From NCBI GenBank assembly GCA_012519905.1, contig JAAYPG010000066.1:1-64000 (forward strand): a stretch of 64,000 nt of DNA, read 5' to 3'. Each line of letters starts with the position of its first letter. Position 1 is the first letter of the stretch. This document shows positions 28,773 to 31,487 of the stretch, in pieces. The notes under the pieces were generated by a model. That model saw only the letters and a program-made list of their open reading frames with translations, had not been told where the DNA came from and searched no databases. A program made the position numbers and the translations under genes. Origin of the DNA: Clostridiales bacterium (GTDB taxonomy: Bacteria > Bacillota > Clostridia > Lachnospirales > Lachnospiraceae).

Positions 28773-29132
28773 TTATGCCATATTATATAAAAATGGAAGG
28801 AGCAGAACCCATAATATGTGTGAAAGATTAACTAGTGAGTATAAAGTTAATGATATTAGAAGCCCAATATTAGCTGCTCGTAGTTGTTTGGCGTCTGTAA
28901 GGCGTATTCTTTTATAGAGATAGTTAAGTGTCCCTGCTGGGAGTATAATCTTAAGAATTATGCTAATTAATGGGCTTTCAACTACGCTGACCATAAATAT
29001 GTTTATTTCCTGAAAGAGGCCTGTTCGCAATAAGGCAAGTGTAAATAATATGTCTGAAACATTAAGTATATATAGAAGAATTAACTTTTTGCGAATATTT
29101 ATTATATTATAGGTCTTTATAAATGAAATCAA
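28773..29132 (-). CDS. small membrane protein, DUF5658-like
   Basis: LYILNVSDILFTLALLRTGLFQEINIFM...; strong RBS aggaggtgaatat before TTG 29132. Confidence 0.6.
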   Translation of the reverse strand: MISFIKTYNIINIRKKLILLYILNVSDILFTLALLRTGLFQEINIFMVSVVESPLISIILKIILPAGTLNYLYKRIRLTDAKQLRAANIGLLISLTLYSLVNLSHILWVLLLPFLYNMA

Positions 29133-29371
29133 ATATTCACCTCCTTGACAGGAGTATTGACAACTAGCCATGTTTTAATCGTTTTATATAATTTATTAGA
29201 GTGTCTGATTATATGTATGTTTGACTGCTTGTGTACTTACATATAATTTTTGGATATATTTTTCTTTGAACAATAATGAGTTTGATCTGTTAGTAGCGAT
29301 TGTCGAAATATGAACATTTTTGTAAGAGACACATAGAATAATATAGTCACTTATAAGAAACGAGGTGTCGT

Positions 29372-30943
29372 ATGTTACAAAACTGTTCAAAAATAATTAT
29401 TTATTATGTTATTAATAATTTTAAGAATATTGTTAAATATAGGAAACGTAAATATATTTATATTGGAGAAAAAGAAAAACTTGATCCCAAAATTATACCA
29501 AAATATAAAAATCAATTATATAAGCCCCATATCTTTCACCCAATCTTAATTAAAACTCGAAAGAATGATTATAAAGAAGCTAGGGTAGAAGAGTACTTAT
29601 ATTTTATAGATATATGCAGTTTTAAAGAGCAGATCTTACCCCATGGATTTCCTAAAACAACAGTTATTGGTGCCGCTGGTCTTATTAAGACTTCAAAGGG
29701 AACTGTTAGATATATTAGGGCTTTTCCTGGGGCTAGCTTTGAGGTAAGTAGATATGCTCCAATTCATGTAAGGTGGAGAAATAAGACGGATAGGTTGATT
29801 CGAATATATATTCACGGACTTAAAAGTAATAAGACAGATATTTCATATGAATTAGATAAGCTTTATAAAAGAGTAAGCGACCATCAATATGAAAATAATC
29901 AAGAAACGGCTTTGTATTGGTATCAGGATAAGAACAATCTTATGAGCACAATAGGGCTATATATTATAAAAGAAGATAAGAAGGACTATAGGTATAACTT
30001 TAAAAGTATGGATTTGCCCGTATCTAAATATAAATACCCACTTATTATACAGGATTGTTCCTTCTATAAGGATGGGTCAGTTGTCTATCCCAGTGGAAAA
30101 GTAAGCGATAAATCAAATACAGCTGTATCTTGGCTACCATACTATGGGGATGTTATCCTGGTAAATGGCAGGGCATGGCCAAATCTAGAAGTGGAAAGAA
30201 GGCAATATAGATTCTATATCTTAAATGCTTCTAGATCAAGATTTTATAATTTATATCTATCAAATGGAGTAGACTTTTTAGTAATTGGGGGAGACAAGGG
30301 GCTGCTTCCTTCGGCCGTAAGGCAAAAAAACATATTACTAGCACCGGGAGAGAGAGTTGATCTTCTAATAGATTTCTCCCGACTAGCTAAGGGTTCAAGA
30401 ATTATATTAAGGAATGATGCCAAGACGCCATATCCCCATGGGGAGCTAGTAAATCCAGAAACAGTGGGACAAATCATGAGTTTTCATATCCCTGACCATG
30501 AAGCCTTATCTATATCACCCAGCAAACTACCTAATAAGCTATATGACGCAGCTATAATACCAAAGAATTTACCAGTGATAGTTAACCTTATCTCTAAGGA
30601 CGTGGAAGTTAAGGAAGGTTCTGTACTATTGAATGGTAATAGATGCACCTTGCCTATTACTATAAAGGGTCAGATTGAATCACCCCAGGAATGGTGCTTT
30701 ATAAATATTACTGAATTATCTTATCCAGTCTATTTTAAAGAAAGCAAGTTCAGAATAATAAGTCGTCAGGAAATTGATACAAGATCCTTCAGTAGACAGT
30801 GGAATGATAGTAAGGATTATCAAACCATTGGTCCTCATTTGCTTGGAGACCCTAAAGAATCAGAGGAATATGAGAGGGGCTGGAAGGATACCTTAAGAAT
30901 CGATCCGGGTGTGGTAACTCGGGTATTAGTGCAATCAAATTAA
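29372..30943 (+). CDS. CotA-like multicopper-oxidase-fold protein lacking most copper ligands
   Basis: DVILVNGRAWPNLEVERRQYRFYILNASRSRFYNLYLSNG, GLLPSAVRQKNILLAPGERVDLLIDFS, GWKDTLRIDPGVV align with CotA family; Cu motifs degenerate. Confidence 0.85.
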   Translation: MLQNCSKIIIYYVINNFKNIVKYRKRKYIYIGEKEKLDPKIIPKYKNQLYKPHIFHPILIKTRKNDYKEARVEEYLYFIDICSFKEQILPHGFPKTTVIGAAGLIKTSKGTVRYIRAFPGASFEVSRYAPIHVRWRNKTDRLIRIYIHGLKSNKTDISYELDKLYKRVSDHQYENNQETALYWYQDKNNLMSTIGLYIIKEDKKDYRYNFKSMDLPVSKYKYPLIIQDCSFYKDGSVVYPSGKVSDKSNTAVSWLPYYGDVILVNGRAWPNLEVERRQYRFYILNASRSRFYNLYLSNGVDFLVIGGDKGLLPSAVRQKNILLAPGERVDLLIDFSRLAKGSRIILRNDAKTPYPHGELVNPETVGQIMSFHIPDHEALSISPSKLPNKLYDAAIIPKNLPVIVNLISKDVEVKEGSVLLNGNRCTLPITIKGQIESPQEWCFINITELSYPVYFKESKFRIISRQEIDTRSFSRQWNDSKDYQTIGPHLLGDPKESEEYERGWKDTLRIDPGVVTRVLVQSN

Positions 30944-30945
30944 AA

Positions 30946-30990
30946 AAATGAGCTGTCTATAAGGATATAACCTTTAAAGACAGTCTCATT
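30946..30990. terminator. Bidirectional terminator between convergent genes
   Basis: AATGAGCTGTCT...AGACAGTCTCATT. Confidence 0.65.
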
Positions 30991-30995
30991 ATATA

Positions 30996-31487
30996 TTATA
31001 TTTCAGTCTGAAGTTTCTTGTCTTTTTCTAACACTTCCCTAGCCATGTCTTCCTTCATTTTAAGAAGCTTTTCTGTTAATAAGTCATCATTAACCGCAAG
31101 AATCTGAACTGCCAGCAAGGCGGCATTTTCTGCTCCATCTATGGCAACTGTTGCTACGGGTACTCCCTTAGGCATCTGAACAGTAGATAATAGTGCATCA
31201 AGGCCATCAAGTGTAGAGGATTTCATAGGAATTCCTATAACGGGTAATGTAGTATGAGCAGCAACAACTCCGGCCAAATGTGCTGCTTTTCCTGCTGCGC
31301 ATATTATAACACCAAAACCATTAGATTTTGCATTTGATGCAAATTCCATAGCCTGCTTTGGAGTACGGTGTGCGCTCATTATATGAGCTTCAGTTGTGAT
31401 GCCATAATCTTTGAGGGTCTTAATTGTACCTTTTACAACAGGTAAATCAGAATCGCTACCCATTATTACTGCTACTTTTTTATTCAT
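30996..31487 (-). CDS. purE: 5-(carboxyamino)imidazole ribonucleotide mutase
   Basis: VIMGSDSDLPV, SAHRTP, AGKAAHLAGVVAAHTTLPVIGIP. Confidence 0.95.
   Translation of the reverse strand: MNKKVAVIMGSDSDLPVVKGTIKTLKDYGITTEAHIMSAHRTPKQAMEFASNAKSNGFGVIICAAGKAAHLAGVVAAHTTLPVIGIPMKSSTLDGLDALLSTVQMPKGVPVATVAIDGAENAALLAVQILAVNDDLLTEKLLKMKEDMAREVLEKDKKLQTEI

Follow-up and report, generated by a model that had tools for sequence, protein, structure and literature searches.

At positions 29372..30943 (forward strand) of the window, a 64,000-nucleotide stretch from the genome (G000) of a heat-loving anaerobe belonging to Herbinix, lies an open frame of 523 codons encoding a putatively copper-less homolog of the CotA-type multicopper oxidases (MCOs), 523 residues long. 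A ribosome-binding-site-like GAGGTG, read directly from the sequence, stands 4 bp ahead of the ATG (29362..29367, forward strand), and further upstream there is a sequence match to a SigK-type promoter (29314..29340, forward strand), whose -35 element AC (29314-29315) and -10 element CATAGAATA (29332-29340) are separated by a 16-bp spacer. The slot is marked on one side by a divergent gene for a DUF5658 membrane protein (28773..29171, reverse strand) and on the other by the convergent purE (30996..31487, reverse strand). Between the converging genes, the 52 bp from the stop codon to purE (30944..30996, unstranded) fold as an intrinsic-terminator hairpin (-18.1 kcal/mol, z -5.8), agreeing with the terminator that the first-pass annotation had placed directly after an intact reading frame.

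The protein consists of three cupredoxin domains and is CotA-like both by sequence and by predicted fold. The alignment places its borders only approximately: an N-terminal extension (residues about 1-84) is followed by domain 1 (about 85-200), which carries a deletion of about 40 residues immediately ahead of the site that reads HLHG in enzymes and YIHG here, by domain 2 (about 201-390), the best conserved, and by domain 3 (about 391-523), which is degenerate and lacks the C-terminal tail. All three CotA landmark segments quoted earlier are found in it, including the GWKDT block, beyond which the protein runs on to VTRVLVQSN. It scores below the cut-off of the Pfam MCO models, and its best match in the PDB is CotA of Bacillus subtilis (1gsk/4a67, phmmer E 3e-51), as the proposed CotA-like identity would have it. 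AlphaFold likewise predicts a CotA fold (pLDDT 81, pTM 0.84), and Foldseek ranks CotA first against that model (E 4e-43, TM about 0.71-0.74).

A CotA-type enzyme holds its copper with 12 ligands, arranged in the motifs HxH, HxH, HxxHxH and HCHxxxHxxxxM, and domain 3 houses the T1 site together with one half of the trinuclear ligands. We aligned the window protein and its relatives, including 18 complete intact MCOs, each of which has 12 of 12 ligands. At these positions the window protein reads Y H Q K Y Y K, followed by five gaps, so that at most one of the 12 is retained; the sole survivor is the second histidine of HLHG, provided that the alignment is correct there. The degradation of the copper motifs described from the letters alone (HLHG to YIHG, WYHDH to WYQDK, HPIHLH to YPVYFK) is thus borne out by comparison with intact MCOs, as is the absence of the HCHxxxHxxxxM block. 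Nor does a frameshift conceal that block further downstream: tblastn downstream of the stop codon returned nothing, and the tail is not restorable in this way because the 52 bp before purE are taken up by the terminator, leaving no room for it.

Orthologs with the same or greater losses occupy the same slot in two other Herbinix genomes, H. hemicellulosilytica T3/55 (G022) and the metagenome-assembled genome AS24abBPME_146 (G004), and each is 52% identical to the window protein. In the carriers the gene order is DUF5658, MCO, purE, a C92-peptidase-like gene, a Ca-ATPase and MscS. Only one of 12 ligands is kept in each of the two, the domain-1 ligand positions reading Y, P, H, K in H. hemicellulosilytica and C, H, Y, Q in G004, and both proteins end at the border of domains 2 and 3, so that the third domain is wholly absent. 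The domain-1 deletion is common to all three degenerate MCOs, as are several derived residues (e.g., Y182, Y222, C229 and K309), while the replacements at the ligand positions vary between them. In the gene tree they group together as a single clade (support 100/100) on a long branch. The existence of two syntenic orthologs excludes a one-off pseudogene, and neither of them has intact ligands. The locus tree places H. hemicellulosilytica outside the other two, with which the gene tree agrees weakly (82/41); the domain-3 losses in H. hemicellulosilytica and G004 stop at an identical residue. The form with domains 1 and 2 is also predicted to fold (pLDDT 80, pTM 0.81). Outside Herbinix we found no ortholog, either among one genome from each of 150 genera of the family, where the other matches were intact-type or weak, or in the GTDB r220 scan.

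Between the three degenerate orthologs, pairwise pS is 0.72-0.74, meaning that synonymous sites are saturated and no proper dN/dS ratio can be quoted, while pN is 0.28-0.36 and all frames are open. Across the three, 44-52% of residues are kept, and domain 2 evolves most slowly (53-61% identity, against 36-48% in domain 1). At 0.05 substitutions per site, a simulated 523-codon frame stayed open in 4 of 300 runs, and at 0.1 or more in none of 300. Saturated pS combined with lower pN and open frames shows that the protein was under purifying selection; selection maintained it through most of the period after the species split, though less tightly than intact MCOs, since its amino acid divergence is about twice that of intact orthologs (73-85% identity, albeit in different species pairs).

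The putative promoter points to when the gene may be used. In Clostridium difficile, as in B. subtilis, SigE and SigK share a common -10 element and differ at -35, ATA as opposed to AC (PMC3789822); the pairing of a -35 AC with a -10 CATA is thus valid in a clostridium. The pattern sought, AC-N16/17-CATAnnnTA within 150 bp of the start codon, is short; it occurs upstream of all three degenerate MCOs (at -58, -60 and -44), and in 22 of 26 MCO genes compared with none of 271 control ORFs on the same stretches of DNA (Fisher p 1.5e-29, a nominal value, since MCO genes are related and the 22 matches are not independent). None of the six slots without a degenerate MCO contains it. The window genome has SpoIVA, SASPs and SigE-, SigF- and SigG-like genes, the last three assigned by match rank and neighbourhood. 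We did not find sigK in this assembly, a draft metagenome-assembled genome, whereas both other carriers have it in full. In H. hemicellulosilytica sigK is preceded by a U32 peptidase gene, of which the window genome has just a 40% paralog, and because this conserved neighbour is missing too, the absence of sigK is probably a gap in the draft assembly. Some Herbinix metagenome-assembled genomes are predicted to be spore-formers and others are not (PMC12536801). In two genomes sigK is seemingly split in two by about 5.5-7 kb, as though a skin-like element had interrupted it (G002:C82:95773-103654 and G029:C60:369-6568).

Our preferred explanation, to which we give a probability of roughly 0.6, is that the gene encodes a copper-free MCO pseudoenzyme, produced late in the mother cell and serving as a structural protein of the spore coat. 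The first-pass annotation had proposed a maintained scaffold, perhaps structural in the coat, and the signature of purifying selection and the conserved SigK-type promoter both speak for this proposal. The pseudoenzyme would descend from a CotA-type sporulation laccase in which, in an ancestor common to at least the three carriers, the domain-1 deletion and the ligand substitutions destroyed the copper sites, T1 and trinuclear alike. The beta-sandwich scaffold, domain 2 most of all, would have been retained, while copper and oxidase activity would both be gone. Transcription would be driven by the SigK-type promoter late in sporulation, in the mother cell; in H. hemicellulosilytica the transcript would begin about 10 bp after CATAAAATA. 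The product would most likely become part of the coat or outer layer of the spore, where its function would be structural or one of binding rather than catalytic, and as the third cupredoxin domain is gone in two of three species, its working part would be domains 1 and 2. Against this explanation stand the missing sigK of the window assembly, the shortness of the promoter pattern and the kinship of the genes that carry it, the long branch and faster evolution of the degenerate clade relative to intact MCOs, and the absence of the gene from the slot in six relatives, one of which (G032) keeps a relic of it.

The last two observations would also be expected of slow decay, in which a laccase gene unneeded in an anaerobe persists as residual open frames and sheds domain 3 piecemeal before it is lost. 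The slot is empty in five genomes (G014, G016, G018, G008 and G032), and in G007 it holds a YgaP-like membrane gene instead. In G032 the 172-bp gap between DUF5658 and purE retains NILNGSASRFFKLILSNEMIMRFSIPENDAISIAP, clearly what a deletion left of the degenerate MCO (L069:9630-9802, NILNGSASRFFKLILSNE...IMRFSIPENDAISIAP). Loss in several close relatives means that the degenerate gene is dispensable. Erosion extends to other loci: H. luporum SD1D (G006) has an MCO pseudogene (L020, C1:2419508-2423026) with a frameshift near the N-terminus and a domain 3 of which deletion has left only the 17 C-terminal residues, in another frame, although the copper motifs HLHG and WYHDH of domains 1 and 2 are intact, and in G015 (L024, G015:C100) a single in-frame TAG ahead of the HCH block interrupts a second MCO that is otherwise full-length. 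The empty slots and the H. luporum pseudogene indicate that the laccases of Herbinix are under erosion. Decay of this kind nonetheless seems to us an unlikely account of the window gene, despite the missing third domains and the accelerated evolution, because the retention of about half of the residues, three frames and three promoters in the face of saturated synonymous sites needs selection, and because several derived residues have become fixed across the three species. The window lineage is one in which the MCO was kept after inactivation.

A non-catalytic scaffold acting outside the spore, for instance at the septum, has a precedent in FtsP/SufI of Escherichia coli (2uxt), an MCO fold that keeps two of 12 copper ligands and is thought to act as a scaffold (PMC2661564). 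We regard such a role as improbable here. FtsP is a Tat-exported periplasmic division protein of a separate lineage, whereas residues 1-40 of the window protein, by reading, contain no twin-arginine motif with a hydrophobic stretch; its match to FtsP (E 4e-15) falls behind that to CotA, which is also first by fold, and its promoter is of sporulation type. Still less probable is that the fold keeps a site for some other metal or ligand, or another catalytic activity: polar residues (Y, K, Q, C) do occupy most of the former ligand positions, but they vary between the orthologs, two of which lack the very domain that houses the T1 site. That an assembly error or frameshift masks an intact laccase is refuted, for although the window genome is a draft of 197 contigs, the same degenerate gene sits in the same slot in two independent assemblies, one of them an isolate, and the terminator fills the space ahead of purE.

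The closest known system for the proposed coat pseudoenzyme remains the CotA laccase of B. subtilis, nearest by sequence and structure, with the same three-cupredoxin fold and likewise a sporulation gene. Unlike CotA, the window protein lacks the T1 and trinuclear ligands, the C-terminal HCH tail and a segment of domain 1, and to judge from its residues it cannot be a laccase as known. Another comparison is the intact MCO of H. hemicellulosilytica (G022:C26, L023), about 37-40% identical to the degenerate form and sharing its N-terminal block, domain 2 and SigK-type promoter, but with all 12 ligands, 665 residues and another genomic slot. Copper-less MCO scaffolds are already known, as in FtsP/SufI; a sporulation-linked copper-less CotA whose orthologs shed a whole domain appears to be new, and the titles and abstracts searched yielded no copper-less CotA in spores. 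If the explanation is correct, the CotA scaffold serves the spore in some way other than by oxidation, and the scaffold of a coat enzyme can matter without its chemistry. One genus, a cultured type strain included, offers a natural series of intact, ligand-less, domain-3-less and deleted forms in which the role of coat laccases in anaerobes can be tested.

At slightly less than even odds, we would extend this to suppose that Herbinix has taken its sporulation laccases apart repeatedly, oxygen-dependent chemistry being of little use to an anaerobe, and that in one lineage one of them was converted into a coat protein without copper and, in the end, with two domains. A survey from 2008, in which most anaerobes examined made no use of copper and CotA turned up in Bacillales alone (PMC2147054), fits a weak need for laccase chemistry, but the intact CotA-type genes common within Herbinix run counter to it. 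Among the carriers, H. hemicellulosilytica has an intact MCO elsewhere (L023), G004 has another in the second MCO group, and the window genome has no further MCO. An MBL-fold gene separates DUF5658 from an intact MCO in G015, and the two keep the same orientation towards each other, from which it follows that an intact MCO probably once stood next to DUF5658. The DUF5658 gene diverges from the MCO gene in all three carriers and lies close to an intact one in a fourth genome, and a functional link between the two is possible. YgaP-like membrane genes lie in or beside the MCO slot in G007 (L075:2745-3071) and in H. hemicellulosilytica (L002:1916-2416).
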